A DNA stretch of 38,466 nucleotides from Chromatiales bacterium. GTDB taxonomy: Bacteria > Pseudomonadota > Gammaproteobacteria > Steroidobacterales > Woeseiaceae. The stretch covers positions 1 to 38,466 of the forward strand of contig JAIBDF010000015.1 in NCBI GenBank assembly GCA_024679535.1. The letters are read 5' to 3'. The position numbers and the translations under genes were made by a program. The notes under the pieces were generated by a model that saw only the letters and a list, made by a program, of their open reading frames with translations, searched no databases and was not told the DNA's origin. The first letter of the stretch is position 1, and each line of letters starts with the position of its first letter. This document shows, piece after piece, positions 707 to 38,093 of the stretch.

Positions 707-1651
707 TCAGGCGGGGAAGAAGTCGATCGGTTTTGTAGTTGTGATGGCCTCGACGTCCCTCGCCTCGAAACGGAACAACTTGACGCGTTGCACCAGCTTA
801 CGCTCCAACTCCGCGTCGTTGAGTTCGCTGGAGACGACTTCACACATCGTGACTGCGCCATTTGGCGCGATCGTCAGCCGCAGCACCAGCTTGCCTTCAA
901 GCGACGGATCCTTGCGCAGGGCACGATTGTAGAGGGCAAAAATTGCACCTTTATTCTTATCGAAAACGAGTTCGATTTCTTCGCGTGAGCGGGACGCCCT
1001 GCCACTGGAACCCGAGCGGCTCGCACCAGCTCCCTGGGCCAGGCCGGCGACCGGGCTGGAAACCTTGGTCGTACTCCGACCCGCAATACCCGTGCCACCG
1101 GTGTTGCGACTCATTGTGGCCGTATCGATACCACCTGACGCAGTGCCAGCTTTAGACGTGATCATCGAACGTTCATTCCGCTCAGCTTGGCCGACCGATG
1201 CGGTCAACGGGCGGCTGTCGGCAATTTGCAGCTCCTTATCGACAAGATCCGCAAGGTCCTCGGCAAACGGCATCAGCGCCGCCTGCGCTTCTTCGCGGGC
1301 CTGCTCTGTACGATCCACAACGGGCTCGGGCTCGGGTTCTGGCTCAGGTTCTGCCTCGACAACCTGCTCAGGCTCCGGCTCGTCGGGCTCGGGCTCCGGC
1401 TCCGGCTCCTCCTCCTTGGGCAAAGGCGGAGGCGGCGGCAGCGGCTCTTCTTCGAGCAACAGCTGCGCTATACGCGGTGGAATTTCTTCGACATCGAATG
1501 GATCCGGTTCGGGTGCAGGAAGAAACGGCCACACAATACTAAGTGCCATACAGACCAGGAAGATAATGCCCAGCAGACGCTGGAACTTCTTTTCCTGATC
1601 CTGGCCCGTCGTCCAGGGCAGCTCATATTCTCTGTAAAACGGTAAGTCCAA
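707..1651 (-). CDS. TonB-like energy-transducing protein with AgmX/PglI C-terminal domain
   Basis: This 314-residue protein has a short cytoplasmic N-terminus, one membrane helix at about 27-43, a Pro/Glu-Pro stretch at 69-111, a Gly/Ser/Thr-rich linker (about 165-222) and a folded C-terminal domain (about 222-314). That is the build of TonB/TolA-type proteins, which carry ExbB/ExbD energy across the periplasm. The C-terminal domain resembles the AgmX/PglI domain named from myxobacterial gliding proteins rather than classical TonB; this is recognised from pattern, not from a search. The start is TTG, with GGAG eight bases upstream, 31 bp after the second exbD stop, so it is very likely co-transcribed with exbB-exbD-exbD. 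It probably forms the arm linking the inner-membrane motor to periplasmic or outer-membrane partners, plausibly the TPR proteins encoded upstream. Confidence 0.85.
   Translation of the reverse strand: MDLPFYREYELPWTTGQDQEKKFQRLLGIIFLVCMALSIVWPFLPAPEPDPFDVEEIPPRIAQLLLEEEPLPPPPPLPKEEEPEPEPEPDEPEPEQVVEAEPEPEPEPEPVVDRTEQAREEAQAALMPFAEDLADLVDKELQIADSRPLTASVGQAERNERSMITSKAGTASGGIDTATMSRNTGGTGIAGRSTTKVSSPVAGLAQGAGASRSGSSGRASRSREEIELVFDKNKGAIFALYNRALRKDPSLEGKLVLRLTIAPNGAVTMCEVVSSELNDAELERKLVQRVKLFRFEARDVEAITTTKPIDFFPA
1322..1447 (-). repeat. Low-complexity Pro/Glu-Pro coding repeat
   Basis: This part of the AgmX/TonB-like gene encodes polyproline followed by runs of Glu-Pro dipeptides (residues 69-110). 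On the plus strand it reads as repeated GGCTC/CGGGCT units. Such stretches form an extended, stiff periplasmic spacer in TonB-like proteins. The DNA repeat could vary in length by slippage. Confidence 0.8.
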
Positions 1652-1682
1652 TTCCGTGACTCCTGATCTCTTGCAGCGCGTC

Positions 1683-2210
1683 CTAACGCGACGCCTGAAG
1701 GTCGTCCAGTTTGTCTGAACTCTTCTGCAGGACGGCCAGCGAGATCTGCCCGTAATCCGAATCCGTACAGGTCGCCATGACTTTCTTCAGCAGACGGTAC
1801 GGGATGTCCTTGTCCCCCAGGATCGTCACTTCACGACCCGCGACATCGTCCTTGGCCGCACGGCGCAACACACGGTCGTTCTGCGATAGCAATGCCTCAC
1901 GCAGCGCAGGAATATCGTTGCCCTTGGTGGCCATGACTTCGGCAATGTTAGCCACTGGTGTGCCCTGCACGAGAATGTCAGTCTTGCCAATCAGGATCGT
2001 GACAGTCTCTTCCGGTTTCCTCTCAGCGATGGACTCCGGCAATTTCATGTCCTTGGCATTGGGCAATGTCTGGACGTCCGATGAATTAACCAGGAGGAAA
2101 AACACCAGAATCGTGAAAATATCCATGAGTGAAACGAGATTGAGTGCACCAGCGCCTTTGTTACGCCTGTGGTGCTTCTCCATGCGTTTTGCGCGGCCCG
2201 ACTTGACCAT
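1683..2210 (-). CDS. ExbD/TolR family protein with intact membrane Asp (second ExbD)
   Basis: This 175-residue protein has a basic cytoplasmic N-terminus, one membrane helix at about 23-43 and a periplasmic C-terminal domain, the ExbD/TolR plan. The helix begins NLVSLMDIFTILVF, so Asp30 sits where ExbD/TolR proteins carry the Asp that takes protons through the channel. It should therefore be a working stator subunit with the ExbB homologue encoded upstream. Its ATG shares one base with the stop of the preceding exbD (TAATG), and a GGGGGT ribosome binding site lies inside that gene, indicating translational coupling. The substrate-side partner is unknown; family membership is firm. Confidence 0.9.
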   Translation of the reverse strand: MVKSGRAKRMEKHHRRNKGAGALNLVSLMDIFTILVFFLLVNSSDVQTLPNAKDMKLPESIAERKPEETVTILIGKTDILVQGTPVANIAEVMATKGNDIPALREALLSQNDRVLRRAAKDDVAGREVTILGDKDIPYRLLKKVMATCTDSDYGQISLAVLQKSSDKLDDLQASR

Positions 2211-2728
2211 TACGAAGTACCCCCGTCGAGAACTGGCGCATCACCGATAGAGATATCCGGAAAAAGATCCGATCGTATGATCTGCTCGTTTTCTTCGTCG
2301 ATGTCCTGCGCGACTCGTACCGTGTCCATGACCTGAACCAGCGTGTCGTAAGCAATATCCTGCTCAAGAAGTATCGACGCATTCGTTTTCGTCGGATAGC
2401 GCTCCTTGAGCTCAGCCAGTTTGTCCGCAAGCGCATCGTAGTCGTAACCTTCCACGCCGTTGGGGTAGATGCCCAACAAGCCCTGGTTACGATCGCCGAC
2501 TTCAATCTTATCCTGACGTACGATGACTTCGAGCTGGAATGTCTGTTCCTGCGGGTCCACGGGCTCATTAGAGGAGCCTGGCAGGTTCAATTCGAGAACC
2601 GCCAATCGCGAGAACACCGCGGTGATGAGCAGGAACGGAACCAGGATCACCATCAGGTTCATGAATGCCGTGATATTGAGTTCGGCCGTCTCGACATTGT
2701 GACGACCGCCCCTGCGGCTGCGGATCAT
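2210..2728 (-). CDS. ExbD/TolR family protein lacking the membrane Asp (first ExbD)
   Basis: This 172-residue protein has the ExbD/TolR layout: a basic N-terminus, one membrane helix (about 17-40) and a periplasmic domain. The start of the helix reads AELNITAFMNLMVILVPF. Asn24 is found where ExbD/TolR normally has Asp, and I confirmed the codon as AAC. It is thus unlikely to carry protons itself and may have a structural or regulatory role beside the second ExbD, which keeps Asp30. It follows exbB by 3 bp, has GGAG eight bases before its ATG, and overlaps the next exbD by one base. Confidence 0.88.
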   Translation of the reverse strand: MIRSRRGGRHNVETAELNITAFMNLMVILVPFLLITAVFSRLAVLELNLPGSSNEPVDPQEQTFQLEVIVRQDKIEVGDRNQGLLGIYPNGVEGYDYDALADKLAELKERYPTKTNASILLEQDIAYDTLVQVMDTVRVAQDIDEENEQIIRSDLFPDISIGDAPVLDGGTS

Positions 2729-2731
2729 GGC

Positions 2732-3373
2732 TTATGCTCCGCTCTGGTTCAGCTGACGTTCGGTAACCGCGTTCAGGAACTTAACGCTGGCCATTTCCAG
2801 GCTGTCCACGAGCGCATTCGTCTTGGTTTGCAGCAAAGCGTGAATCAGCAGCAACGGAATTGCCGCCATCAGGCCGAAGGCCGTGGTGTTCATCGCCGTC
2901 GAGATCGACGCCGACAGCATGTCCGCTTTCTCAGCCGGGTTAGCTTCGGCAACCGCCGTAAACGCCGAGATCAGGCCGATAATCGTGCCGAGAAGGCCCA
3001 GCAACGTCGCGATGTTGGCAAGCGTCGCAATATAATGCGTGCGCTTTTCGAGTCGTGGCAGAACCTCCATCAGGCTTTCTTCCATCGCCTTCTCGATGTC
3101 ATCACGACGGCGTGCCGACTTAACTCGATACAGGCCATAGGTCAGAATCGAGCCGATCGCGGCTTTCGATTTACCCGTAAGCGCAGCCGCTTCCTGGAAG
3201 TTTCCTGACTTAAGAAACGGCACGATCTTCTTCCACAATGCACGGTTGCTTGTGCCTGACACAGTCAGGTACGTCCATCGTTCGATCGCAATGGCCATAC
3301 CGAACCCGAATACCAACAGGATGGGGATCATGAAAGGTCCGCCTTCCTGGAAAAAACGCACTACAGTGCCCAT
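2732..3373 (-). CDS. MotA/TolQ/ExbB proton channel family protein
   Basis: This 213-residue protein has membrane segments at about 14-33, 113-138 and 160-182. The glycine-rich segment LGLLGTIIGLISAFTAV is the typical TolQ/ExbB/MotA core. Such proteins form the pentameric inner-membrane channel around an ExbD dimer and turn proton flow into movement of a TonB-like arm. The ATG is preceded by GAGGAG at a spacing of seven. Its neighbours downstream are two exbD genes and an AgmX/TonB-like gene, which makes a complete energiser. A 147-bp gap upstream, with a 17-nt palindrome at 3408-3424, might hold an internal promoter. Confidence 0.92.
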   Translation of the reverse strand: MGTVVRFFQEGGPFMIPILLVFGFGMAIAIERWTYLTVSGTSNRALWKKIVPFLKSGNFQEAAALTGKSKAAIGSILTYGLYRVKSARRRDDIEKAMEESLMEVLPRLEKRTHYIATLANIATLLGLLGTIIGLISAFTAVAEANPAEKADMLSASISTAMNTTAFGLMAAIPLLLIHALLQTKTNALVDSLEMASVKFLNAVTERQLNQSGA

Positions 3374-3407
3374 TTGTCTGCTCCTCTAAAACAGATGTGA
3401 TGACTCT

Positions 3408-3424
3408 TGCAGACGACGTCTGCA
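3408..3424. promoter_or_regulatory. 17-nt perfect palindrome upstream of exbB
   Basis: TGCAGACG-A-CGTCTGCA is a perfect inverted repeat with 8-base arms around one central base, lying 34 bp before the exbB start in the largest gap inside this operon. It could be a transcription-factor operator or a small mRNA hairpin. No T-run follows, so it is not an intrinsic terminator. The regulator is unknown. Confidence 0.4.
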
Positions 3425-3520
3425 TCTCCAAAACCAGTTCTTGCAAGTAACTGTGGGGGCGGCTTGTCCCGACATGCGTGATAGCAAGCCGCAAATTCGG
3501 GCCCATAAGCCGTCCTGCAG

Positions 3521-3934
3521 TTATTCCTCTTCCGTGCCGTACAAGTCCTTGTGATACTCGACTTGCCGAATAAATTCTTCCCGATCCAAAGGCGCCAGCA
3601 CCTCATCGATCAGCGTGTTAACGGGCTTGCCCATCAGGTCACCCGGATCCGACTTTTTCCAGGGTACGATATACAGAACCTTTGGCAGCTCCTGGTTGCC
3701 TGTAATTTCCGTACGTCCCAGCTCCATTGAATCCATCACACGGTTGCCCGAGGTCGTACGCGTAATATCTGCCGATGTTTCCGGAGCATCCTCGTCTGCA
3801 ACAGCCGCCGACGTATTGACGGCCGGCATCAAATCGTCGTCGTCCGTCGCATCCTGAGCAAAAGAGGCAAACGCTGCCAACAACATGGCGAGCATAATTC
3901 CGGTGCCGAATACTGATCTCATCCGAGTGCTCAT
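3521..3934 (-). CDS. Small acidic exported protein of unknown function
   Basis: About 137 residues starting MSTRMRSVFGTG. A signal peptide ends near AFASFAQ, then comes an acidic, probably disordered stretch rich in Asp/Thr/Ser, and then a conserved-looking C-terminus containing LPKVLYIVPWKKSDPGDL and APLDREEFIRQVEYHKDLYG. I do not recognise the family. Two starts are possible: ATG at 3943 overlaps the stop of the TPR lipoprotein gene as ATGA, but its GGCGGA sequence directly abuts it. ATG at 3934 has that sequence nine bases upstream and is preferred. It lies between the TPR lipoprotein and exbB genes, so a periplasmic partner of the energiser is the simplest guess. Confidence 0.75.
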   Translation of the reverse strand: MSTRMRSVFGTGIMLAMLLAAFASFAQDATDDDDLMPAVNTSAAVADEDAPETSADITRTTSGNRVMDSMELGRTEITGNQELPKVLYIVPWKKSDPGDLMGKPVNTLIDEVLAPLDREEFIRQVEYHKDLYGTEEE

Positions 3935-3939
3935 GTCCT

Positions 3940-4602
3940 TCATTCCGCCACGCTTGCCGTAGGCTGACGCGCCGCCAGACGGCGCTTCAGATCCGCAATC
4001 CACCTCTCGACCTGCTTATCCTCGCCAACAAGCGCCTGATACGCTTCGAAGTGCTTCAGCGCCGCTTCGAGTCGCTGCAGGTACAATTCGTAAAGAATGC
4101 CCAAATTGTAGTGTGCCAAGGCATAGTCAGGGGAGACTGTGATCGCCTTCAAATAAGTGGCCTCTGCCTCCAGAAACTTTCCGTTTCTGCGATGTAGCAG
4201 ACCGAGCTGGTTCAAAGCGGCCGGGTGATTGGGGTCCAGCGCCAGTGCCGCGTCCAGGACTTTGCGCGCCTCGTCCTCATTCTCGTTGCGTATATGAATA
4301 ATCGCAAGATTCACATACGCACCCGGGTATTCCGGGTAAACCAGCAGAAATTCCTTGAAACGCAGCTCCGCATCCGTCAGGTCGCCGGCCGCCTGGCTCG
4401 CCGTCGCCTGCTCGAACAACGTCAGAGCCTCGGGCGGAATGGTCGGCCCGGTTGCCGCGAGATTGTCTTCGGCGTCTTCAGTAGCGACATCCCTCGCGGG
4501 ACCTGATCCCGCGCAGCCCGCAAGAATCAACAGCAGCGCCACGAGTGCGAGGTTTTCAGTAAAGCGCGGTAACAACATCTTCGCTGCGCTCCTTCTTCGC
4601 AT
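3940..4602 (-). CDS. TPR-repeat lipoprotein
   Basis: The N-terminus has a signal sequence with the lipobox LILAGC, so Cys30 (counting from the first Met) would be lipidated. The +2 residue is Ala, which favours sorting to the outer membrane. After a linker, residues about 58-200 form at least three tetratricopeptide repeats (for example AYVNLAIIHIRNENEDEARK and ALNQLGLLHRRNGKFLEAEA). An internal Met at residue 9 (4578) is an alternative start that still leaves a complete signal peptide. The gene overlaps the end of the preceding 935-residue TPR gene and its stop overlaps the next gene. TPRs bind proteins, so it probably docks periplasmic parts of the system to the outer membrane. Myxobacterial Glt systems also contain TPR lipoproteins; equivalence is inference. 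Confidence 0.88.
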   Translation of the reverse strand: MRRRSAAKMLLPRFTENLALVALLLILAGCAGSGPARDVATEDAEDNLAATGPTIPPEALTLFEQATASQAAGDLTDAELRFKEFLLVYPEYPGAYVNLAIIHIRNENEDEARKVLDAALALDPNHPAALNQLGLLHRRNGKFLEAEATYLKAITVSPDYALAHYNLGILYELYLQRLEAALKHFEAYQALVGEDKQVERWIADLKRRLAARQPTASVAE

Positions 4603-7363
4603 ATCTCGCCGGCATCAGGCCGGCCAGTCGATCAAAACTATTTTGTACCCATTCGTCATAGACCCCATCGGCGGCTCGGTCCGTGTTCGCCTTATAAAGG
4701 TCTATGGATTTCTCCTCAAACGGGTAGGCCTGTTCCTCGAGCAGAATCTCGTACTGTTCCAGTGCATCGGCTTCCAGATTAGTAGGACGATCCGAATCCA
4801 AGAGGTCGGATGAAAACTGTTCGTAGACTTCGCCCAGACGATATGTGGACGCGGTTGTCACCTCTGCGATCGCAAAGTCGGACGCCTTCGTGTACGCCGC
4901 AATAACCTCCTCCATCAGGTCTCTTTTCAGCTTCAGGCTTTCCGCCAGTGGCTGCGTGAGCTTCACAACCTCAAACCGCCTGCGAACAGGCTCGGCGAGT
5001 TCCAGAGACGCCGTGGCAGCCAGATAGCGAGTGCGGTCCGAACGTTGTACGCCGGCCGTTGCATCAACCTGGATCAGGGTCTCGAGAATCGCCATGCGTT
5101 CTGCCTGATCGCCCAGCTCTCTCGCAATTTCTGCCATTCGGGCACGCGCTTCAATCGACTCAGAGACCGGCTCGGGATAGCGCGCAACAAGATCACCGAG
5201 GACGCGTTTTTCCTCGGCCAGTGAACCGGCCTCCCCATACAGTTCGGAAGCCTTCCAGAGTGCTTCGCGCCGCACGAGCTCGGTAGTCAAAGCCCCTACC
5301 GCAATCGTCTCGAACTCGGACGCTGCCTGTCCCGTACGCCCTGCACCCATGTACGTAACGGCAAGTTTTTGCGTTACATCATCAGCAAGTTCACTGCCGG
5401 GATAATCACGGCGAAATTGTTCCAGTACTACCGACGCGCGGTCCCAGGCCTGCATGTTAATGAGCACAGCAGCGGCGTCAAATTCGGCCGTTTCCCGGAT
5501 CGGTGAATCCGGAACAACCTGCCCAAGGCGCGTAAAGTGCCGTACAGCGTTTTCATTGGCACCCTGTCCCCTTGCCGCTTCACCCTGTTTGTAAATACTC
5601 GACGCAATGCGTTCCTTCAGGTCCGCCTGTGCGGCAACATCATCCACGGGCGTTAAGTTACGCAGGCTGTAATAAGAACTTTCCGCATCCTCAAAATTTC
5701 CCATATCGAAATGCGAGTATGCGATTACGGTCCAGGCTGTGCGCGCGTTTTCAGGCTTGGCCGGCGGCTGCTTGGTCACGACTTTTTTGCCAACGGCAAT
5801 AGCCAGGTCATACTGGCCCTGCAAGAAGAGGTCTTCCGCGACCGTTGTCAGCACGGCTCCTGACTCAGGGTGTTCCGGAAAGATATTCGCGAATCGCAGC
5901 CCGCTGTCGAGATACTGCTGATGCCAGGTGTCTTTACTGACGCCTTCCAGTGTCGCTTCATGCTCGCGGTACGCAAGCAACGCCGCATAACCCGCTTCGG
6001 CCGACCTGTCATTGAACGGGTAGCTGTAGGAAGTTCTCTCATACTCCATCATGGCAGCGTCAAATTCCCCGCTTTCATACAACGTTTCAGCCAGCAGGAA
6101 ATTCGTGTTTGCCGTATCCGCTTCGCCCGGGAAGTAGGCAAGATACTTGCGGTACCAGTTCGCCGCTTGCTGAAAATCGGTCTTATTGCCGCTCTTCTGA
6201 GCTTGGGCATGATAGTACTGTGCGAGATCTGTCAGGTTGGTCTTGAGGTGTACCGCCACGGACTCATTCGCCGCGCGTGGGTTCCGCATCCAGAACTCGC
6301 CGTCCATTCCATAACGTTCAACAAAGCTCTTCTTGCCCTCGAGCACGAGACTCGGAAATCCGCCTTGCTTGTAAGACTCGATAACCTGGACCTGCAGGGA
6401 CGGCGACATCGGGTGAAACGGGTCCTGTTCGACAAATGCCTCGTAGGTTTCCGCCGCGTCCTGAAAGCGTTCTTTCTCTAGATACAGGTCGCCGAGGTTG
6501 CTGTAAATCACATGGCTGTAACTTGGCAGGCCTCTCTGCGCGAGAAAGCCGTCGATACTGTCCGCGCCATCCATATAAGAGAAACTGATACTCAATACCC
6601 GGAAGGTGTCTTCGATCATCTCCCGCTCGGCGCGGCTCAGGGCTTCCAGGCGATTCTCGCCCTCACCAACGCGCAGACCGGCGATACGCCTGTCAAGAAG
6701 TTCAAAAAACGGGCTCAGGCTGTCCTCATGTATGCCCAACTTAAACTGCGACCAGCCGAGCTTGTAGAGCGACTGCTCGTAGAAACGGGATCTTTCGCCG
6801 TAAGCCCGGACATCCTGGTAGGCCGCTTCTGCATCGTCGTAGCGTTTGTTGAGGAACAACATTTCGCCGCGCCGAAACTGTACTTCGTCCACAAGCAGCG
6901 TGTCAGGAAAGCGCTCGATCAACTCGTTCAGTACCGTCAGTGCATCGTCGTTACGTCCGCCAACTTCATAGGCGCGGGCCAGCTGATAGAGGACCGTGTC
7001 ATTGCGGCGGTAATTGGGATAGGCCTCGAGAAGTCTCTGATAAAGCCCGACGGCGTTGTCGAAATTTCGCGAGTCCAGCGCTTCAATGTTCTCCGTCAGC
7101 TGCTCTACTTCCGTCGCTTCGAGCTCCAGGTCACCAAGACGCCGTAGTGCTTCCGCCTGGAGTTCGGCGTCAGTCGAAACAAGATCCAGAAAGTCACGGT
7201 AGCTTTCGCGCGCAAGCTCGGAACTGTCGAGGATTATCTTGCCCGGACGCACATCCACGCTCTTTTCCTCGAGGCTCTTGATCGTGTCATTGGCAGCAAG
7301 TGCGGCCGGCGCAGTAACCAGCGCCGCGATCAGAGGGACAGCGAACAGGAAGCGCACCGTCAC
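4556..7363 (-). CDS. Large exported TPR-repeat protein
   Basis: This 935-residue protein starts at GTG, with AGGAGG seven bases upstream, in a GTGA overlap with the preceding gene. A signal peptide (MTVRFLFAVPLIAALV, cleavage near ALAAN) is followed by repeated helical pairs of the TPR/Sel1-like type over most of its length. Clear ones include AVGLYQRLLEAYPNYRRNDT, ALTVLNELIERFPDTLLVDE and SLYKLGWSQFKLGIHEDSL. No enzymatic motif or further membrane helix is seen, so it is probably a soluble periplasmic scaffold. Its place between another TPR gene and the TPR lipoprotein gene suggests a multi-protein TPR assembly energised by the ExbB/ExbD complex encoded downstream. Confidence 0.88.
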   Translation of the reverse strand: MTVRFLFAVPLIAALVTAPAALAANDTIKSLEEKSVDVRPGKIILDSSELARESYRDFLDLVSTDAELQAEALRRLGDLELEATEVEQLTENIEALDSRNFDNAVGLYQRLLEAYPNYRRNDTVLYQLARAYEVGGRNDDALTVLNELIERFPDTLLVDEVQFRRGEMLFLNKRYDDAEAAYQDVRAYGERSRFYEQSLYKLGWSQFKLGIHEDSLSPFFELLDRRIAGLRVGEGENRLEALSRAEREMIEDTFRVLSISFSYMDGADSIDGFLAQRGLPSYSHVIYSNLGDLYLEKERFQDAAETYEAFVEQDPFHPMSPSLQVQVIESYKQGGFPSLVLEGKKSFVERYGMDGEFWMRNPRAANESVAVHLKTNLTDLAQYYHAQAQKSGNKTDFQQAANWYRKYLAYFPGEADTANTNFLLAETLYESGEFDAAMMEYERTSYSYPFNDRSAEAGYAALLAYREHEATLEGVSKDTWHQQYLDSGLRFANIFPEHPESGAVLTTVAEDLFLQGQYDLAIAVGKKVVTKQPPAKPENARTAWTVIAYSHFDMGNFEDAESSYYSLRNLTPVDDVAAQADLKERIASSIYKQGEAARGQGANENAVRHFTRLGQVVPDSPIRETAEFDAAAVLINMQAWDRASVVLEQFRRDYPGSELADDVTQKLAVTYMGAGRTGQAASEFETIAVGALTTELVRREALWKASELYGEAGSLAEEKRVLGDLVARYPEPVSESIEARARMAEIARELGDQAERMAILETLIQVDATAGVQRSDRTRYLAATASLELAEPVRRRFEVVKLTQPLAESLKLKRDLMEEVIAAYTKASDFAIAEVTTASTYRLGEVYEQFSSDLLDSDRPTNLEADALEQYEILLEEQAYPFEEKSIDLYKANTDRAADGVYDEWVQNSFDRLAGLMPARYAKKERSEDVVTALY

Positions 7364-9228
7364 TCGGAGACCTCCTCAGACGAACTGGAGATATCGTATA
7401 TCGCGGCCAGCGCAAATCGTGCCTGCACACTGTAGACACCGAGACGATCTTTCTGTGCCTGCAGTTCACCGACGGCAATCTCCTGCAGAAATTCACGCTG
7501 GCGAATTATTGCGTCCGCAATTTGCAGGCGCGTGCTTTCCAGGCGAGGTGCGAGGCCGTAAACGCGATCGCTTAGCGCCTCAAAACGCAGTGGTTCAGTA
7601 CGCATAACCTCATCGATCTGGCGACGCGAGCGTTGCGTTGCGACGAGCGCTTCGCCCGACAAGTAAAGATCCCGACGAATCAGCCCCAGGCGCTCCTTGA
7701 AATCCCGCTCGAGATTCCACTGCAGTACCCCTTTGAGCAGATCGACCTTATCGCGCACTTCGGCTGCTTCGGGAAGATCTGCCCGCACGGCCCGACCGCG
7801 CTCAAGGCCAGTGACCTCGTCCCACATGTCGAACTCAGACTTCTTCGCGAGCGACAACCAATCGTATGAACTCTCAATAGAGTCCACCGTCGAATCGAAT
7901 GAGAGCTTGGACTCAACCATCCGGTCGAGGTCAGCCCGCTCCAGCGCGGCCTCAACCAGGGGCAGTCTTTGCGCATACGCCTCTTTGCGTGTTTCAAGCA
8001 TATTTTCGAAGACGTCCACATTTCGCAGCCAGTCCTCGATATTCCGGTTCAGGTAGTGAAGATCCCGGTAGTTCTTCAGACCTTCCTGGAACTGATGCGT
8101 CGCCAACAAATGAAAGAGATACCGCGATTCCAGGCCTTCGGGTAAAGTCTGGAGATTCCAGTACCATCCCGAACTGTTGAGCGGATCGTTGGCAATAAAC
8201 TGATTGAAGAAATCGCCCGATTCGATAAAACCGATAGTCTCATCGAGCCGGTTGGACTCTTCGTTAAATGCCTCGATTGCGTTCAGGTAATGATCAGCCG
8301 CCTGGCTGATTGCATCCAGCTTCGCCATCGCAAACGGAATGGCCAGGAGCGACTCCTGCACGGCAGAGTCCAGCAGATCCCGGCCACGAAGCTCCATCCA
8401 GGGAACCAACGCGCGCCGGTAGCTACTCATTTCGGCGTCGGCCCAGCCCACGCCCAACAGAGCCTTGTTGGAAAACGGCCCCTCAAGCCGAACGCGCTGC
8501 AGGGGGATTTTTGCCGCCTGCGGCTGGCCATCCTGGAGTAAGGCATAACCGAGCGCCACGTTCGCCTTGTCACGCAATGCATCTGTTTCGTCGTTATATG
8601 GCGCCATGCTGCCGAGTTCATCCAACAGGACCCTGGCTTCCTCGATACGGCCGCTGCGCACCAGCGCAACGCCGGTATTGAATTTCGCGTATCGCGCCCA
8701 CTCGGTCTTACCCTTCCAGTTGCTCAACCCGGCTATGGCCTGATCGAAATTGCCAGCGTCGATTTGAATCTGCGCACCGAGCATCGCAGCTTCGTTTTCG
8801 AGGTGTTCGGGCAGTGCGCCGGCGATATTCGCCAATGCACCCCGTGCTTTGTCGAGGTATCCACGCTGGTACCAGATCTTCGCCAGAAAGAACCAGGTAC
8901 GATCCCGGATGTCCGGCGCCACATTACTCGCAAGCAAATCCTCGAAAATCTCGGCAGCTTCGAGGTGATGGCCGTAGGAGAGATACATACCGCCAAGCAA
9001 CAGGTCGGCTTCCTCGGCATGATCTGATAGCTGCTTCTGCTCCTTCGCGACAAGCAGTCTTACGATGGCAGGTACGTAATCTTCCTGGTAGAAATGGAAC
9101 AGCGCCTCACCGAACTGGGGATCCTTGATTTCTACAGGTTCCACGCGATCGCCGGCGGCCTGTACGACCGGGACGGTAACCAGGAGCAGGACGCAAAAGC
9201 GCAAGATAAATAAACGGCTTGCGCGCAA
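7360..9228 (-). CDS. Exported TPR-like protein
   Basis: This 622-residue protein starts at TTG, with GGGAG at ideal spacing, 3 bp after the previous stop. A signal peptide (FCVLLLVTVPVVQAAG) precedes TPR-like helical repeats over about residues 35-280, for example DLLLGGMYLSYGHHLEAAEI and TWFFLAKIWYQRGYLDKARG. The second half (about 290-610) is helical and probably coiled coil, without recognisable catalytic motifs. No other membrane helix is seen, so a periplasmic location is expected. Its end overlaps the 935-residue TPR gene by 4 bp. The function is unknown; I read it as a scaffold of the same envelope complex. Confidence 0.85.
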   Translation of the reverse strand: MRASRLFILRFCVLLLVTVPVVQAAGDRVEPVEIKDPQFGEALFHFYQEDYVPAIVRLLVAKEQKQLSDHAEEADLLLGGMYLSYGHHLEAAEIFEDLLASNVAPDIRDRTWFFLAKIWYQRGYLDKARGALANIAGALPEHLENEAAMLGAQIQIDAGNFDQAIAGLSNWKGKTEWARYAKFNTGVALVRSGRIEEARVLLDELGSMAPYNDETDALRDKANVALGYALLQDGQPQAAKIPLQRVRLEGPFSNKALLGVGWADAEMSSYRRALVPWMELRGRDLLDSAVQESLLAIPFAMAKLDAISQAADHYLNAIEAFNEESNRLDETIGFIESGDFFNQFIANDPLNSSGWYWNLQTLPEGLESRYLFHLLATHQFQEGLKNYRDLHYLNRNIEDWLRNVDVFENMLETRKEAYAQRLPLVEAALERADLDRMVESKLSFDSTVDSIESSYDWLSLAKKSEFDMWDEVTGLERGRAVRADLPEAAEVRDKVDLLKGVLQWNLERDFKERLGLIRRDLYLSGEALVATQRSRRQIDEVMRTEPLRFEALSDRVYGLAPRLESTRLQIADAIIRQREFLQEIAVGELQAQKDRLGVYSVQARFALAAIYDISSSSEEVSE

Positions 9229-9231
9229 GGA

Positions 9232-9828
9232 CTACTCCCATTCCTTGATGGCGAATTCCGGTTGTTGTTTTTTCACACTATCGGTGATTTCCAGCTCTAC
9301 ATACTTGGCACCGATACCCTTGTCAAAGGTCATCGTAGCGCCCCGGCGATAGTCCCTGACATTCGGGCCTTTACCTACAAACACTGCGACAAGCTCATGC
9401 TCGCCGGTCTTCAGGTTCGCCATATGCACACGATGCACACCACCCCGCATCAGCGCGTCAGCCTCGCGCGCCGTATACAGATAATTGGCAACTTCCTTGC
9501 CGTCGATCTTGATATTCACTGAATCGAGATTGAAGTACTCACCGACGTCCAGCGAGACGAAGAACGCGACCTGTGAATTCGCAGGGAAAAGCAGCTCCTC
9601 TTCCAGCAAAAACAGGTCTCGATTGAGATCAAGAACCTCTTTTTTTAGCGTCTGTACTTCCTGGTCGATAGCACGAAAGTCCTGTCGCGACCGGGCTTCA
9701 TCAGCACCGGCAGCGGTAGCCTTTTCTGCGGTTGTGCCAGCGCGGACAGGATCCGCGTCCTGCGCAACGGCAGCCAAACTGAACGCAAGCAGGGTCGTTG
9801 TGACAAGCGATATGAATATCTTGGTCAC
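9232..9828 (-). CDS. Exported coiled-coil protein of unknown function
   Basis: This 198-residue protein has a signal peptide (FISLVTTTLLAFSLAAVAQ), a charged helix likely to form a coiled coil (about 50-80, QEVQTLKKEVLDLNRDLFLL) and a C-terminal half rich in beta strands. That half includes VAFFVSLDVGEYFNLDSVNI and HRVHMANLKTGEHELVAVF, which looks like an immunoglobulin- or PEGA-like sandwich. I do not recognise a named family. It starts 1 bp after the tlpA-like stop and ends 3 bp before the TPR gene, so it belongs to the same transcript. A periplasmic structural role is plausible. Confidence 0.78.
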   Translation of the reverse strand: MTKIFISLVTTTLLAFSLAAVAQDADPVRAGTTAEKATAAGADEARSRQDFRAIDQEVQTLKKEVLDLNRDLFLLEEELLFPANSQVAFFVSLDVGEYFNLDSVNIKIDGKEVANYLYTAREADALMRGGVHRVHMANLKTGEHELVAVFVGKGPNVRDYRRGATMTFDKGIGAKYVELEITDSVKKQQPEFAIKEWE

Positions 9829-9829
9829 G

Positions 9830-10327
9830 TCATTCTCTCAACAGTGAACGAATTTGATTGAGATACATGTCCTCGTATCCCGGCTTGTACCCGTGATGTA
9901 CGTGGCGGACAGTACCCTGACGATCGACAATAACCGTTACGGGCATGGCCTCTACGTCGTAGAGTTTACTGACTTCCTTGCGGGAGTCGAACAGTACCGG
10001 AAAGTTGACGCCGAGCTCGTCCATCATGTCCATGGCGCGACCTGAATCGTCATCGATATTGACGCCAAGCAGATTGAAACCGACGCGCTGGTAGCGCGAA
10101 TACAACTCAGCAAGCAACGGCATCTCCTGCCGGCACGGGCCGCACCAGGTAGCCCAGAAATTAATCATGACCACGTCGCCACGGTACTCGGATAAACGCA
10201 TGTTTTCACCGGTCGAGCTCTTGAGAGCGAAGTCCGGTGCCTGCTGGCCCTCCATGCTGCCTGCTGCGAGGCTGGAGGCGGCAAAAACACCAAAAACCAG
10301 GGCGATAAGCGAATTCTTCAGTTTCAT
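9830..10327 (-). CDS. TlpA-family thiol:disulfide protein
   Basis: This 165-residue protein has a signal peptide (about 1-22) and a thioredoxin/AhpC-TSA fold. The active site is WCGPC (Cys62, Cys65), and AMPVTVIVD contains the cis-proline loop. It matches TlpA/ResA-like periplasmic reductases, which keep thiols of exported proteins or cytochromes reduced. An AAGGA ribosome binding site lies eight bases before the ATG. It is the first gene of the run of minus-strand genes down to the AgmX/TonB-like gene. No cytochrome c maturation genes are near, so the client could be a protein of this envelope system; that is inference. Confidence 0.9.
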   Translation of the reverse strand: MKLKNSLIALVFGVFAASSLAAGSMEGQQAPDFALKSSTGENMRLSEYRGDVVMINFWATWCGPCRQEMPLLAELYSRYQRVGFNLLGVNIDDDSGRAMDMMDELGVNFPVLFDSRKEVSKLYDVEAMPVTVIVDRQGTVRHVHHGYKPGYEDMYLNQIRSLLRE

Positions 10328-10644: not shown

Positions 10645-11685
10645 CTATTCGGGCGCGTCTGAGGCAGGCTGCATCAGGCCATCCGAATAGAAGACCCGAC
10701 CCTCGTCGTCAATCACGATGCTCTCGTAGTCGGGCAGGCTGCCAATCAACGTCAGACCGCGCTCCACACCCATGACGAATACCGAGGTCGACAGCGCATC
10801 CGTTATAACGGCGTCGGGGCCAAACACCGTGGCGCTGCGTACGCCGCTGGCAGGCTCGCCAGTGCTGGGCTGAATAATGTGGTGATAGCGGACGCCCCCT
10901 TCCTCGAAATAGCGCTCATAATCTCCTGAGGTCGAGATCGCCTCATCGGCCAATGGCACGGATATCGCGACCTCGCCATCTTTGCGCGGATCTCGAATAC
11001 CCACCATCCATGGCCGACCGCGCCGGTCACCGAGCAGCCTTGAGTCCCCACCCGCTGTTACAATGGCGTTCTGGACGCCGCGGCCCCGCAGGATATCGAT
11101 GCCGCGTTCAACCACATAGCCTTTGGCAATGCCGCCGAGATTGATGCGCACGCCCGGCTCCAGAAAATGCACCGTACTCCTGACCTGGTCGAGTTTTACC
11201 AGTCGGTAATCAATATGCTGGCGTTCAGACTCAACGGTTTCGGGGTCCGGGCGCTGCCCGGAGCGAAAATCATAGTACTGCCCGACGCTGTCGTACGTAA
11301 TATCGAAAGCGCCCCGCGTCAGGACCGAAATATCGAGTGAACGTTGAATCAGCCCAAACAGCTCACTGCCCGCCGCAACCTCGCCCTGTGCTGCGTCCCG
11401 ATTGATTTTTGATATTTCGCTCTTATCTTTATACGTACTCATGAGGCGATCGATGCGTGCCGCCTCCTGAAAAACCTCTTCAAGCGCCTCGCGACCAGCT
11501 TCGGGGTCGTCGCTCCAGAGGTGAATGCTGACCTCGGTACCCATCATTGCGCGGGCATCACTAAACCAGTCGGCCAGCGCAGGAGACGCCGACAACGTCA
11601 ACAGGAGCATTGCTAGTTTTGGTCCAAGACCGGGGTTATGCTTGGTACAACAATAATTAAGCAAGGAGCGAGACAGTGACTTCAT
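10645..11685 (-). CDS. apbE: FAD:protein FMN transferase (ApbE family)
   Basis: This protein of up to 346 residues attaches FMN from FAD to a Thr of target proteins such as RnfG/NqrC-type subunits, normally in the periplasm. Family hallmarks seen are MGTEVSIHLW near the N-terminus, INLGGIAKGYVVERG, AIVTAGGDSRLLG and the metal-site segment ITDALSTSVFVMG. A signal peptide (KLAMLLLTLSASPALADWF) precedes the domain, with no lipobox Cys. The ATG at 11685 overlaps the start of divergent lemA by 10 bp and has a poor ribosome binding site. A start nearer 11610 is possible, although it leaves a short signal peptide. No rnf or nqr gene is in the window, so the target protein must lie elsewhere. Confidence 0.93.
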   Translation of the reverse strand: MKSLSRSLLNYCCTKHNPGLGPKLAMLLLTLSASPALADWFSDARAMMGTEVSIHLWSDDPEAGREALEEVFQEAARIDRLMSTYKDKSEISKINRDAAQGEVAAGSELFGLIQRSLDISVLTRGAFDITYDSVGQYYDFRSGQRPDPETVESERQHIDYRLVKLDQVRSTVHFLEPGVRINLGGIAKGYVVERGIDILRGRGVQNAIVTAGGDSRLLGDRRGRPWMVGIRDPRKDGEVAISVPLADEAISTSGDYERYFEEGGVRYHHIIQPSTGEPASGVRSATVFGPDAVITDALSTSVFVMGVERGLTLIGSLPDYESIVIDDEGRVFYSDGLMQPASDAPE

Positions 11686-12266
11686 TCCTGATTTTTTTAG
11701 GGCTAATCGCCGCCATTGTGTTCTGGGCGATTGGTATTTACAACCGACTCGTCAACGAACGCAACAGGGTTAGAAACGGCTTTGCGCAGATCGACGTTCA
11801 GCTTACCCGACGTCATGACCTGATTCCGAATCTTGTTGAAGCCGTCAAGGGCTATATGAAGCATGAGCGCGAAACGCTCGAGGCCGTGATCCAGGCTCGT
11901 AATACGGCCGTATCGGCACTCGACACGGCTAAGGCAGACCCGGCCAACGCTGCAGCAATCAAGGAACTCGGCGGCGCCGAAGGCGCACTGGGCAGTGTTC
12001 TCGGGCGCCTGTTCGCCTTGTCCGAGGCATATCCTGATCTCAAGGCCAACCAGAACATGATGCAGTTTCAGGAAGAGCTCGCCACTACCGAGAACAAGGT
12101 TGCCTTCTCAAGACAGGCGTTTAATGACGCCGTAATGGGTTACAACAACACCGCTGAAAACTTCCCGAACAACATCATCGCCAACACGTTCGGTTTCGAA
12201 CTCGCGAGCTTCCTCGAAATAGAAGTGGAGGAAATGCGGGAAGTGCCGGAAGTTTCGTTCACCTGA
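11676..12266 (+). CDS. lemA: LemA family protein
   Basis: This 196-residue protein has one N-terminal membrane helix (about 3-20) followed by a long helical domain with the LemA hallmarks YNRLVNERNRVRNGFAQIDV, LTRRHDLIPNLVEAVKGYM and FNDAVMGYNNTAENFPNNII. LemA proteins are membrane-anchored helical bundles of poorly known role, very often encoded next to HtpX-type proteases, as here. The GTG start has AAGGAG eight bases upstream. The M48 protease gene follows after 22 bp, so they are probably one transcript. Its promoter must lie within the 5' part of divergent apbE. Confidence 0.93.
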   Translation: MTSFLIFLGLIAAIVFWAIGIYNRLVNERNRVRNGFAQIDVQLTRRHDLIPNLVEAVKGYMKHERETLEAVIQARNTAVSALDTAKADPANAAAIKELGGAEGALGSVLGRLFALSEAYPDLKANQNMMQFQEELATTENKVAFSRQAFNDAVMGYNNTAENFPNNIIANTFGFELASFLEIEVEEMREVPEVSFT

Positions 12267-12288
12267 TTTTCAGCTCGTTGCCGAAACC

Positions 12289-14238
12289 GTGAATTTCTTC
12301 GCCGCGCAGGACCAGGCACGCAAGGCGTCGCGACGCCTGATCCTCGCTTACATTGCAGCCACTGTCCTGATCGTTGCCGGCGTCACCGCTATCGTCGGAT
12401 TCGCACTGTTCAGTATTGGCAATACCGGCTATGACTACACGCCGGGCGGCTTCATTAGTGCGAATGCCGGCATATTGGCCGGCACCGCCCTGCTAACCAC
12501 GCTTTTCATTCTCGGCGCCAGCCTGTTCAAGACATCTGTGCTGTCATCCGGTGGCGGCGCTGTCGCCACCCAGATGGGCGGCACGCTCGTGCCCGCAGAC
12601 GTGCGCGACCCATTGCGTCGACGACTTCGCAATGTCGTCGAGGAAATGGCGATCGCCTCGGGCGTCCCCGTACCCGAGATCTATGTGCTCGAAGAGGAAA
12701 GCAGCATTAATGCGTTTGCGGCCGGGTTTACTCCCAGCGATGCAGCCGTTGCGGTGACGCGCGGCACCCTTGAACTGCTCGACCGTAACGAGTTACAGGG
12801 AGTTATTGCACACGAATTCAGCCATATTCTTAACGGTGACATGCGCCTGAATATCCGCCTGATGGGCGTCCTGTTCGGCATCATGGTGTTATCTCTGATT
12901 GGACGCCTGATCGTTCGCGGCGGCTATCATGCAAGCATTATTTCCAGTCGCCGCGACCGCGGCGCACCGGTCGTGCTCATTGTAGGACTCGGTCTTGCCA
13001 TACTTGGTGGCATTGGGATGTTCTTCGCGCGCGTTATCAAAGCAGGAGTCTCGAGGCAGCGCGAGTTTCTCGCAGACGCCTCCGCCGTACAGTTCACGCG
13101 CCAAAGCGAGGGCATTGCCAACGCGCTGAAGAAAATTGGCGGCTACAGTCAGGGTTCGCTAATTCAGGCAGCGGACCCGGAAGAAGTCAGCCACATGCTG
13201 TTTGGCTCAGGTTCGAAATTCGCCGGCATCTTCGCGACGCACCCGCCGTTGATCGACAGGATCCAGGCGCTGGACCCGGGCTTCAGGGAATCCGACTTTC
13301 CGCAGGTAGATCCGCGCCAGCACCGGTCGATGGAGCGCGCTCCCAGCGACACCGCAGCGGCATTCGCTGGTGGCGTTACCACCGCCATTGCCAGCGGGGG
13401 CGCTCAGGTGCTCGCTGAGTCAATCGCCGAAACGGTCGGTCAGCCGGAAAACGAGCATGTCGAGTACGCGCAGCATCTGCGGCAATCGACTCCAGAGTCG
13501 CTATATGAGGCCGCGCATTCCGCAGAGTTCGCCTACCTGCTCACTATCGCGCTTATTCTCGACCGCTCGGGGCGCATGGTCGACCGACAACTCGCACTGG
13601 CAAAGGAGCAACTCGGTACCGAGCGCGCCAGGCTGCTGCGACGGTACTATGATGAACTTGCCGCTACGGGGCCGGAATATCGACTGCCATTGCTCGAAAT
13701 CGCTTTCCCTGCACTCAAGCTGCGACCGGTGCAGGAGCTGAGTTACCTGGTGTCGCTCGCCACGCGCATGATCGAAATCGACGGCGAAATCGATCTTTAC
13801 GAGTATTGTTTCTACCGCATCTTGATGAGCAACCTTGGCAAGGCGGTGGACCCGTCTGGACGCCGCCGCGCGCTGCGCTCGAAACGCGGCGATCTGCAGG
13901 CATCGACGATCGGATTGTTGCGCGTCCTCGCCGACTACGGCCACGATAACGAAAGCGAACGAGAAGCAGCGTTTGCCACAGGTATTGAAACCCTGGGTCC
14001 CTGGGCACGGGACTACGTCTACGAGTCTGACCGCAAGTTCACAGTAGCGGTTCTGGACCACGGCCTTGACGTGCTGCTCGGGCTCAACAGTAAAGGCAAG
14101 GAATCTCTGCTTCGAGCAATCAGCGCGACTGCAGGTCATGACGGCAAACTCACTATCACAGAGGCGGAATTGATTCGGGCTGTCTGTGCCACACTCGACT
14201 ATCCCCTGCCACCTATCCTGGTACACAGATCGCGTTAA
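12289..14238 (+). CDS. HtpX-like M48 family metalloprotease with TerB-like C-terminal extension
   Basis: This 649-residue protein begins at GTG with the family-typical MNFFAAQDQARKASRR. Membrane helices lie at about 18-42, 58-80, 190-210 and 228-250. The zinc site is HEFSH (His175, Glu176, His179) with Glu259 in REFLADASAV as the likely third ligand. It is therefore an integral inner-membrane metalloprotease of the HtpX/Ste24 type, expected to remove damaged membrane proteins. It is about twice the length of E. coli HtpX: residues about 390-649 form a soluble helical tail with two segments resembling TerB-like acidic motifs (MIEIDGEIDLYEYCFYRIL, 494-512, and ISATAGHDGKLTITEAELI, 611-629). It is paired with lemA upstream and the SYLF gene downstream. 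The ribosome binding site is weak. Confidence 0.92.
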   Translation: MNFFAAQDQARKASRRLILAYIAATVLIVAGVTAIVGFALFSIGNTGYDYTPGGFISANAGILAGTALLTTLFILGASLFKTSVLSSGGGAVATQMGGTLVPADVRDPLRRRLRNVVEEMAIASGVPVPEIYVLEEESSINAFAAGFTPSDAAVAVTRGTLELLDRNELQGVIAHEFSHILNGDMRLNIRLMGVLFGIMVLSLIGRLIVRGGYHASIISSRRDRGAPVVLIVGLGLAILGGIGMFFARVIKAGVSRQREFLADASAVQFTRQSEGIANALKKIGGYSQGSLIQAADPEEVSHMLFGSGSKFAGIFATHPPLIDRIQALDPGFRESDFPQVDPRQHRSMERAPSDTAAAFAGGVTTAIASGGAQVLAESIAETVGQPENEHVEYAQHLRQSTPESLYEAAHSAEFAYLLTIALILDRSGRMVDRQLALAKEQLGTERARLLRRYYDELAATGPEYRLPLLEIAFPALKLRPVQELSYLVSLATRMIEIDGEIDLYEYCFYRILMSNLGKAVDPSGRRRALRSKRGDLQASTIGLLRVLADYGHDNESEREAAFATGIETLGPWARDYVYESDRKFTVAVLDHGLDVLLGLNSKGKESLLRAISATAGHDGKLTITEAELIRAVCATLDYPLPPILVHRSR

Positions 14239-37700: not shown

Positions 37701-38031
37701 AGCCCTGAAACGTAATATCGATCTGCGTACCGCCGGCTGACGGCGACTCCTGCAGAATCGTGCTTGGATCGATCGAACCTATTTCACGCGCCACTTGGCC
37801 TGAAATAACCTGCAAAGGTGAAATACTGCTGTAAGTGTCACGCTTCAGACGTGAACCGGTTACGACCACCTCGTCCACAACGCGTTCGTCTTCCAATGCA
37901 GCCAGATCATCGAGACTGTCACTGTCCTGTGCGACCGCCGCAGGACCCGCAAGTAAAAACAAACTTGCGAAAACGATAGCGAATGGACTGAGTACACGCG
38001 CGGACAAAGCGCGATCTTCACTAACTCTCAT
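34717..38031 (-). CDS. TonB-dependent outer-membrane receptor
   Basis: This protein of about 1104 residues has a signal peptide (SPFAIVFASLFLLAGPAAVAQ), a TonB-box-like EVVVTGSRLKRD, a plug domain (LQVISGQVAREIG through SSVYGSDAVAGVANIILRKD) and a large 22-strand-type barrel. It includes the loop region TSYRAPNLRENFLLG typical of the family and ends in AAIRFD. The last residue is Asp rather than the aromatic usually seen. Length and plug type resemble Oar/Caulobacter-type receptors for peptides, glycans or other large nutrients; no siderophore signature is evident. ATG at 38031 is chosen because GAGGG lies seven bases upstream; the next upstream Met has none. Two inverted repeats upstream and a terminator downstream make it a single-gene unit. 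The S9 peptidase beyond hints at peptide uptake. Confidence 0.93.
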   Translation of the reverse strand: MRVSEDRALSARVLSPFAIVFASLFLLAGPAAVAQDSDSLDDLAALEDERVVDEVVVTGSRLKRDTYSSISPLQVISGQVAREIGSIDPSTILQESPSAGGTQIDITFQGFVLDNGPGASTIDLRGLGAERTLVLINGRRAAPVGVEGAPFALDLNVIPSSLVDRYEILLDGASSVYGSDAVAGVANIILRKDFDGLELEAYTSVPDYGDGENVTLSASWGYNSDRGVIGFGVDASHLEPVDRGNRPWSSGCTSYYDVDENGQIRTEFIGYQADFGMKSSPCTIGFGSQRVFDNEAGLFGSIYYTDGQTNTGIPNFSEATLFDAVLDINGDGVPDVDFTDYFITTQEGVEHLLPEQDRVSFMAYGEYTFMGEANLTPYFEINYNQRETNAQSAPGALIGTNPINISGDNPYNPCNPDGLNGVDCGLAWDSVLTNPNYITSFGARYESLCASFGFDLADCTPSLFGIFPGGESGPISLEPQVSVRGDRDNVKSDVSQLRLVGGLKGDLPFINFGSVDNWSFDAAFVYSDSSGISERRGVSETKLRYSLDTTVVDPLSGAITCGDGSDGCVPVNMFAPSLYQALSRNDFATQAERDYVFDVRSFDTEYEQTLATLMFTGDLFEMPAGTVAAAVGYEFRNDEIRSIPNDVAKNGELVGFFKDLGATGEKDTNEFFAEVEFPLLADIPAFSELTVNLSTRHTDDEFYGGAWTYSGKLGWRPVDSLLLKASVGTSYRAPNLRENFLLGTSGFRGLFDPCVTPESAIGLDPNNPGGFIYDPAGETRTQTVLDNCVAQGVDPENLGITTSGQSIDTYSVEVLRGVGQTDLVEEKSESWTVGFAWEQPFFEGFDMTLGATYYEIDLRDEIITLTSQFSINACYDDAELDSPYCRNVSRNLTGDGLIIGADEAFLNRDKLKTRGVDVNVSIDWPTEMFGRAVDLGADLTFNRKLQFSDVFIDPVNGDVSADSDLGEFGFPEWEGQGIFRADIGDYRATWSTRYISSVRADADILEANGFDNWLEGAGLTCLGPTAGDVNCRPIGWADNYFRHDFSVYYRGDVWTIGAGARNVLNEAPPLVDGRVVFSAFNTPFGSGYDINGRSYFFNAAIRFD

Positions 38032-38093
38032 TTCAAAACCCTCATGCCTATACAAGTTCGACGTGGCTTATTACAAACCTTGATCGCCGGGCG

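Follow-up and report, generated by a model that had tools for sequence, protein, structure and literature searches.

Ten open reading frames (ORFs), collinear on the minus strand at 707-10327 of a 38,466-nt contig from a Chromatiales bacterium of the family Woeseiaceae (assembly GCA_024679535.1, contig JAIBDF010000015.1), encode the nine constant members of an Agl/Glt-type machine and a TlpA-like thiol-disulfide oxidoreductase. The window, as the stretch analysed is called here, is that entire contig (C139 among the 237 contigs of a draft genome). I propose that it holds the motor and the periplasmic half of a machine that works a redox complex in the outer membrane (OM), a reading to which I would give about an even chance. 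A sequence-only reading had already described the run, with coordinates and content that the ORFs and profile searches bear out, and had compared it with the myxobacterial Agl/Glt system rather than with nutrient uptake. The comparison was right, but it had been published in 2011 (Luciano et al., PMC3169522). The same reading called the machine complete, which is wrong, because the OM part lies on another contig, C82. Of the redox partners it named TlpA and missed the barrels, the cytochromes, and the flavin transferase ApbE.

The constant core consists of nine genes in the order P9-GltC-GltD-GltE-P5-AglR-ExbD1-ExbD2-GltG, P9 and P5 being exported proteins for which profile searches found no family above cut-off. 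Loci were compared from three sources: 32 from relatives and that of the genome itself, 58 from a class-level draw, and 80 named loci reached through GltD, which rank highest among at least 550 matches. When only loci with a P9 hit and enough downstream sequence are counted, the full order is found in 25/26 relative, 30/50 class-level, and 42/49 named loci. Left aside for short sequence were 6, 8, and 21 loci, respectively, and for want of a P9 hit 1, 0, and 10, nine of the last ten beginning at most about 1.7 kb from GltD; the window itself fell under the length filter, yet it holds all nine genes. The exceptions among relatives come to one locus without GltE. At the class level, 12 loci lack the motor quartet, 5 a separate GltC, and 1 GltE, and 2 were scored as having another order; among the named loci 6 lack GltE and 1 has another order. 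In four of the five loci without a separate GltC (L144, L146, L147, L159), the GltD frame is 1415-1518 aa long, and there GltC may be fused to GltD. Conservation of gene order, on which the sequence-only reading had staked its case, is thus what was found, and the run is therefore not a product of chance.

P9 is present in 32/40 relatives, 69/321 class-level genomes, and 10/299 phylum-level genomes, the window's own genome being counted in each census. All ten phylum-level genomes are gammaproteobacterial, in a listing that does not give the share of other classes among the 299. According to Luciano et al., Geobacter and Fibrobacter have the core too, and it may extend further beyond the class. 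The closest GltD match is 91% identical (L175), and of those that follow, at 71-74%, several carry the title Woeseiaceae, all among the best 80 of at least 550 in a search that may omit records very near the window. Three loci (L118, L121, L145) have P9 without a motor and without further core genes, and are perhaps decaying or split clusters.

What accompanies P9 was counted in the single draw of 321 class-level genomes. The OM barrel OMP_myx_plus exceeds its cut-off in 49 genomes, and all 49 have P9. Proteins of the family DUF3570 fall into a divergent group (best score below 160 bits), found in 53 genomes of which 51 have P9, and a canonical group, found in 45 genomes of which 21 do. The hydrazine-synthase-alpha domain (HZS_alpha) is found in 47 genomes, 44 of them with P9. 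All three markers occur together with P9 in 41 genomes; counted by family, P9 is found in 39, divergent DUF3570 in 29, and both in 27. An AglR-type channel (E <= 1e-80) is encoded by 70 genomes, 64 with P9 and 6 without, and 5 P9 genomes lack it. Twenty of 58 divergent DUF3570 loci lie off any P9 contig, as in the window's own genome, so the co-occurrence holds also for genes lying apart. Fisher p values for the three markers against P9, about 1e-32 to 1e-42, ignore shared descent and so are not relied upon.

Many runs of the type to which the window belongs, type A, start with OMP, TlpA, DUF4266, DUF3570, and often ApbE, followed by P9. Direct linkage in the form OMP-TlpA-DUF4266-DUF3570-ApbE-(TlpA)-P9-core is seen, for example, in L112, L115, L212, L225, and L244. 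Further upstream, in the 110 loci analysed, come an SH3 barrel (24 loci; the profile match is weak, 24.9 bits) and a large lipoprotein family (31 loci), which has two or three CxxCH motifs in 23 ORFs, the remaining 8 being cut off at the end of the locus. The middle domain of HZS_alpha, with PD40 matches, was found in all three of these lipoprotein ORFs that were scanned and in the copy of the window's genome. An alternative upstream arrangement has a PSD2-like haem protein (14 of the 110 loci), a LamG/haem protein (18), and a Tat-type protein (20).

In the window's genome, the module families other than TlpA and ApbE, both encoded in the window, are grouped on C82. The genome's OMP copy scores 167 bits with TIGR04565 (OMP_myx_plus; cut-off 60), and the PSD2-like and Tat-type proteins of C82 are assigned by weak profile match or resemblance. 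The DUF4266 lipoprotein of C82 (PF14086, 82 bits) has the C-terminal CxC, ending in CGCN. That tail is unusually rigid, being found in 31/31 other DUF4266 lipoprotein ORFs as well (the window genome's copy is at 1860-2102 of L261, which is C82). The DUF3570 protein of L225 was modelled as a barrel of 16 long strands (predicted local distance difference test, pLDDT, 81.7; predicted template-modelling score, pTM, 0.77), and the PDB matches listed for it include the OM barrels FadL and OprD and the PelBC entry, at a query template-modelling (TM) score of at most 0.52. Judged by the loop lengths of this model, the conserved D73-S79 would lie near the outer end of strand 3. A relaxed motif, D.[IVL][ST].A[ST], occurs in 33/36 divergent DUF3570 ORFs, and the flavin motif D..[ST]GA[ST] in none of the labelled core, TlpA, and ApbE ORFs of the window, L043-L061, and L105-L162.

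The core has a second form. The window's genome holds a paralogous core, split by contig ends between C156 (P9) and C71 (GltE to GltG), with an arm of 478 aa whose long N-terminal part, before the transmembrane segment, is coiled-coil-like. Type B was defined by an arm of at least 440 aa with GltD present (n = 18; L114, which has an extended frame, and the split locus of the window's genome are not counted). An ORF of at least 600 aa lies just downstream of 15/18 B-type loci, as against 12/112 others, some of the 12 perhaps spurious. Downstream of the B-type core in the window's genome are a 2192-aa DUF11 protein and then a 1692-aa OmpA-domain protein; these names come from that genome's two proteins only, whereas for the other B loci either the presence of a large ORF was recorded or the proteins were grouped by similarity. 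None of ApbE, DUF3570, DUF4266, and OMP lies within 5.5 kb upstream in any of the 17 B-type loci with at least 2 kb upstream available, as against 79/118 other loci with at least one (0/7 against 20/42 in the class draw alone). Since B-type loci go without the redox markers and with the large downstream ORF, the partner follows the type of core. The window's core, of type A, makes up the inner half of a larger system, to which the ApbE gene, on the same strand 317 nt upstream of the run, belongs. TlpA was considered as a member of the core and rejected, B-type loci showing TlpA-type genes near the core only on the opposite strand (L068, L062).

Then there is the axle of the motor. At the position of the proton-binding Asp, ExbD1 has Asn in 117/138 loci and Asp in 21, and ExbD2 has Asp in 134/135 rows with one gap, many of the loci being close relatives. 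In Myxococcus xanthus, proton conductance is lost with the change D28N in AglQ, and the Agl-Glt machinery is paralysed (PMC3858216). An ExbD1 homodimer is thus expected to be inactive, which implies a heterodimer with one Asp or a homodimer of ExbD2. How AglQ and AglS pair was listed as unknown in a 2022 review (PMC9389320). The 21 loci with Asp in ExbD1 (L056, L194-L197, L200, L202-L205, L207-L209, L213-L216, L218, L228, L239, L243) amount to a natural switch of the axle residue, and among them are six of the seven loci that carry the title Steroidobacter, Peristeroidobacter, or Steroidobacteraceae.

The motor is also separable from the rest. An AglR profile was run on 20 genomes, picked mainly for seemingly motorless clusters, and nine of them have two P9 loci and one AglR-type channel above 300 bits, although for G216 and G323, both among these nine, completeness is only 72%. 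A lone AglR-ExbD1-ExbD2-GltG quartet stands, in G094 and in G231, on a contig other than that of P9, with no further core gene in the stretch fetched; lone motor quartets are found also in G166, G115, and G175. From these gene counts in draft genomes, I infer that one motor may serve two clusters. The arrangement resembles that of M. xanthus, where AglRQS drives both Glt and Nfs (PMC3858216): there, too, a second, motorless cluster could borrow the motor of another. It differs from Agl-Nfs in having a redox module, and no sporulation context is known for it.

The genes of the system in the window are collected in Table 1. They are tightly packed, with gaps of 1 nt (TlpA/P9), 3 nt (P9/GltC), 147 nt (P5/AglR), 3 nt (AglR/ExbD1), and 31 nt (ExbD2/GltG) and overlaps of 4 nt (GltC/GltD) and 1 nt (ExbD1/ExbD2); GltD/GltE and GltE/P5 overlap too. 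The first start codon listed for P5 (4003) is probably too far upstream, and so perhaps are those of other genes. Predicted promoters number 6, as against 6.0 in shuffles, and terminators 15, as against 12.0, so near the shuffles that no claim is made on transcription.

Table 1. The A-type run of the window and the adjoining ApbE gene, with the basis on which each product is named
Product	Position	Strand	Basis and remarks
ApbE-family flavin transferase, apparent signal peptide	10645..11685	-	PF02424 269 bits; 5' of P9 in many A-type loci
TlpA/ResA-like thiol-disulfide oxidoreductase, CGPC site	9830..10327	-	PF00578 (AhpC-TSA) 113 bits; 5' of P9 in most A-type relatives
P9, exported coiled coil and eight-strand beta domain	9232..9828	-	no named family; alignments, model; first gene of conserved core
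GltC-like exported tetratricopeptide repeat (TPR) protein, 622 aa	7360..9228	-	position and weak TPR matches; no GltC model among the matches
GltD-like large exported TPR protein, 935 aa	4556..7363	-	named by position; top NCBIfam matches are YbgF and BamD TPR models
GltE-like TPR lipoprotein, 220 aa	3940..4602	-	TPR; GltE model 37.9 bits (cut-off 225), lower than other TPR models, e.g. PilW 47.6
P5, small exported protein, conserved C-terminal motif TGNxELPKVL[VY]IVPWK	3521..4003	-	alignment; directly after gltE
AglR/ExbB/TolQ-type proton channel	2732..3373	-	MotA_ExbB 101.9 bits; alignment
ExbD1 axle protein, Asn24 at the expected proton-binding Asp	2210..2728	-	PF02472 63.0 bits
ExbD2 axle protein, proton-binding Asp30	1683..2210	-	PF02472 57.2 bits
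GltG-like TonB-type arm: one transmembrane helix, Pro-rich spacer, AgmX/PglI C-terminal domain	707..1651	-	NF033768 66.3 bits (cut-off 40)

At the level of sequence, the homology of motor and arm to Agl/Glt is shown, and that of the TPR proteins is read from position and family. TPR families match three proteins of the run, weakly in the GltC-like one. The full-length GltG equivalog model gives the arm 44.8 bits, far under its cut-off of 650, and the GltJ model 35.3 bits (cut-off 450). NCBIfam names no GltA, B, F, H, I, J, or K in the window; its GltE match is weak, and no model for GltC or GltD, if there is one, is among the matches. Of the linked module, the OMP_myx_plus barrel and, with its weak match, the SH3 barrel may correspond to GltA/B. 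The homology of GltC, GltD, GltA, and GltB to those of M. xanthus rests on Luciano et al., gene position, and family names. P9 was modelled (mean pLDDT 85.5) with a signal helix, a coiled coil at 38-80, and an eight-strand domain that starts at residue 85. Attempts to place it failed: Foldseek found no PDB match at E <= 0.001, the top one being a transthyretin-like hydrolase (TM 0.32), and no sequence match fell below E 0.3.

Two neighbours in the window were noted by eye. At 11676-14238 on the plus strand, genes for a LemA-like protein and an M48-type protease diverge from ApbE, an arrangement kept in several relatives, and a second LemA-like gene adjoins DUF3570 on C82. At 18890-22903 on the minus strand is a gene for a 1337-aa, NTPase-like protein with WD40-type repeats and an inserted stretch resembling convertase P.

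How might these parts work together? AglR and the ExbD1/ExbD2 axle would form a proton-driven 5:2 motor, and the TonB-like arm GltG would take its force across the peptidoglycan to a periplasmic scaffold made of P9, GltC, GltD, the lipoprotein GltE, and P5. If a complex forms with the OM module, the scaffold would work the SH3 barrel, the OMP_myx_plus barrel, the DUF3570 barrel, the CGCN-ending lipoprotein DUF4266, and the c-type cytochromes, one of them with the HZS_alpha domain. The thiols would be kept in working order by TlpA, and the flavin, of which divergent DUF3570 is the putative carrier, would come from ApbE. The likeliest job would be to place, gate, or move a redox complex at the surface by means of force, much as AglRQS moves the adhesion complexes of Glt and the spore-coat polymer bound to Nfs. 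Of the M. xanthus proteins, GltA and GltB, both OM barrels, bind GltC (PMC4488436), and AglR binds GltG (PMC3858216); further background to the mechanism comes from PMC12204202, PMC5349195, and PMC13104615. A bolder version has a motorised electron-transfer complex, in which a one-Asp heterodimeric axle assembles, gates, or moves an OM conduit made up of c-type cytochromes and a barrel that carries flavin, the other OM partner of type B, large surface-type proteins, means a different job, and one motor can serve two clusters. This version I hold as tentative, possible though on balance doubtful.

Several observations weigh against a redox machine. In 16 of the 69 genomes with P9, all three OM markers are missing, so the core also runs without the module; 39/118 non-B loci likewise have no ApbE, DUF3570, DUF4266, or OMP in the 5.5 kb upstream, and in the window's genome core and module sit on separate contigs. 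Nor is the association exclusive: HZS_alpha occurs in three genomes without P9 and divergent DUF3570 in two, and 51 more genomes have OMP_myx_plus matches that are weak and below cut-off. The cut that sets divergent DUF3570 apart was picked after the scores were seen, and the counts are uncorrected for shared descent. The flavin motif, [ST]GA[ST], is found in 12/36 divergent DUF3570 ORFs, never twice in one, and the C82 protein lacks it, having SSAS. Finally, should the barrels prove to be GltA/B and P5 to be GltF, the set would count as a potential glider in the terms of Luciano et al.

That last point leads to surface motility or adhesion, as in myxobacterial gliding, movement having been one of the jobs that the sequence-only reading put forward as inference. 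Motor and arm are homologous to Agl/Glt (PMC3169522), and Luciano et al. speculated that a bacterium with AglRQS and GltA-G may glide, a set that the OMP_myx_plus barrels (as GltA/B) and P5 (as GltF) could complete; downstream of B-type cores, moreover, a large ORF is usual, as with the DUF11 and OmpA-domain proteins of the window's genome. The same authors, however, deem motility by the core alone unlikely, and the partners of type A are haem and redox proteins, with no known adhesins among them. Motility was set aside as the main job, linkage and co-occurrence pointing instead to OM barrels, c-type cytochromes, thiol-redox proteins, and ApbE, and I consider it improbable. A better case, though still an unlikely one, can be made for a machine of the Nfs or Tol kind, which would serve the spreading or export of polymer at the surface or the upkeep of the OM, with redox genes that only mature its own proteins by way of disulfides, haem, and flavin and do not transfer electrons. 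It is general knowledge that TlpA-type proteins often act in maturation, and the DUF3570 barrel has as its top PDB match an exopolysaccharide pore, PelBC, albeit at a TM of only 0.52 and with FadL and OprD alike. In M. xanthus, AglRQS-Nfs does move the spore-coat polymer (PMC3858216). Besides maturation enzymes, however, the module has whole haem proteins and a barrel of the family of ApbE substrates, and no polysaccharide synthesis gene was seen by eye in 22 neighbour clusters (six of them profile-scanned).

The TonB-like arm invites a different thought, that the motor opens the DUF3570 or OMP_myx_plus barrel to a metal or other substrate, which is reduced at the surface or in the periplasm. 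A VIT1 iron transporter is reported in 25 DUF3570 clusters (PMC8238504), and the CGCN tail of DUF4266 could bind metal. Such gated uptake sits poorly with the neighbour clusters, in 22 of which no TonB-dependent receptor was seen by eye, and with the scarcity of transporter-like neighbours, mostly downstream (Kef-type antiporter in 6 loci, ABC ATPase in 4, EamA-like in 4); I would not expect it to be right. A plain TonB system that serves ordinary receptors, the outcome that would have undone the sequence-only reading, is very improbable indeed. The arm does pass the general TonB-family model TIGR01352 (31.1 bits, cut-off 27.1) and, with a cut-off of 24.6, just passes Pfam TonB_C in the genome scan (24.7 bits; 22 on the protein), and a large ORF resembling a TonB-dependent receptor by eye lies in the window at 34717-38055 on the minus strand. 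That ORF is about 24 kb from the core, at the other end of the contig, and positionally unrelated to it. The tail fits NF033768 far better, any His, a residue that TonB has there in its SHLS motif (PMC12204202), is found in only 9/131 GltG transmembrane segments, the fixed linkage is to TPR proteins rather than to receptors, and the genome has seven further TonB_C matches, one of them the B-type arm. The grounds for dropping plain TonB were the tail, the missing His, and the linkage.

The kind of core found here is already known, having been described by Luciano et al. and in PMC3858216, which in 2013 regarded it as possible basal transport machinery. Luciano et al. found gammaproteobacterial aglRQS and gltCDEG clustered with one extra gene and left the function of the complex unassigned; their core complex has duplications, and the extra gene has no counterpart in Myxococcales and Bdellovibrionales. 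The present cluster likewise has one AglR, two ExbD-type proteins, GltC, GltD, GltE, and GltG together. Beyond these it has both P9 and P5 as constant members, the A and B types, and the OM redox module of type A, the module going unmentioned in the portion of that paper's text consulted. The extra gene would be P9 or P5; by position P5, standing after gltE where M. xanthus has gltF, would answer to gltF. With the M. xanthus Agl-Glt system the cluster shares motor, TonB-like arm, TPR proteins, and OM barrels beside GltC. It differs in an arm without an FHA domain, a run with neither a GltI-sized ORF nor a second AgmX-tailed gene, and a linked module of haem proteins, DUF3570, DUF4266, TlpA, and ApbE. 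ExbBD-TonB and TolQRA have a related channel, axle, and arm, but here there are two unlike axle proteins, the AgmX/PglI tail, and the TPR scaffold, and the run has no receptor or Pal.

On the redox side, ApbE, DUF3570, DUF4266, and thioredoxin adjoin one another also in the clusters of Meheust et al. 2021 (PMC8238504), but DUF3570 is divergent here, mostly without the flavin motif, and tied to a proton motor. In the main text of Meheust et al., the terms ExbD, MotA, and tetratricopeptide do not occur, and TonB is named a single time, in a different connection. Theirs was the only paper on DUF3570 or DUF4266 in the literature searched, accession searches adding mentions of PF18582 only. HZS_alpha homologues are treated in PMC12758564, where neither "gammaproteobacteria" nor "Pseudomonadota" appears in the text consulted. 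For Woeseiaceae, PMC12175321 lists exbB, exbD, and tonB for iron, plus mtrABC, the present cluster going unmentioned in the part consulted. No report of a linkage between such a motor and redox proteins was found in the literature searched, a scope that excluded most subscription papers, supplements, and preprints. What is new is the constancy of the nine genes, the OM module of type A, the paralogous type B, the motorless clusters with their putative sharing of motors, and the Asn axle.

The near-exclusive OM partner gives the core complex of 2011 a specific and testable assignment, and the two types suggest one chassis that carries different surface modules. The Asn/Asp axle offers a natural case for the question of whether two ExbD-type proteins pair as a heterodimer. 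If the electron-transfer version of the proposal is true, then these bacteria would use the force of the proton gradient for redox chemistry at the cell surface.

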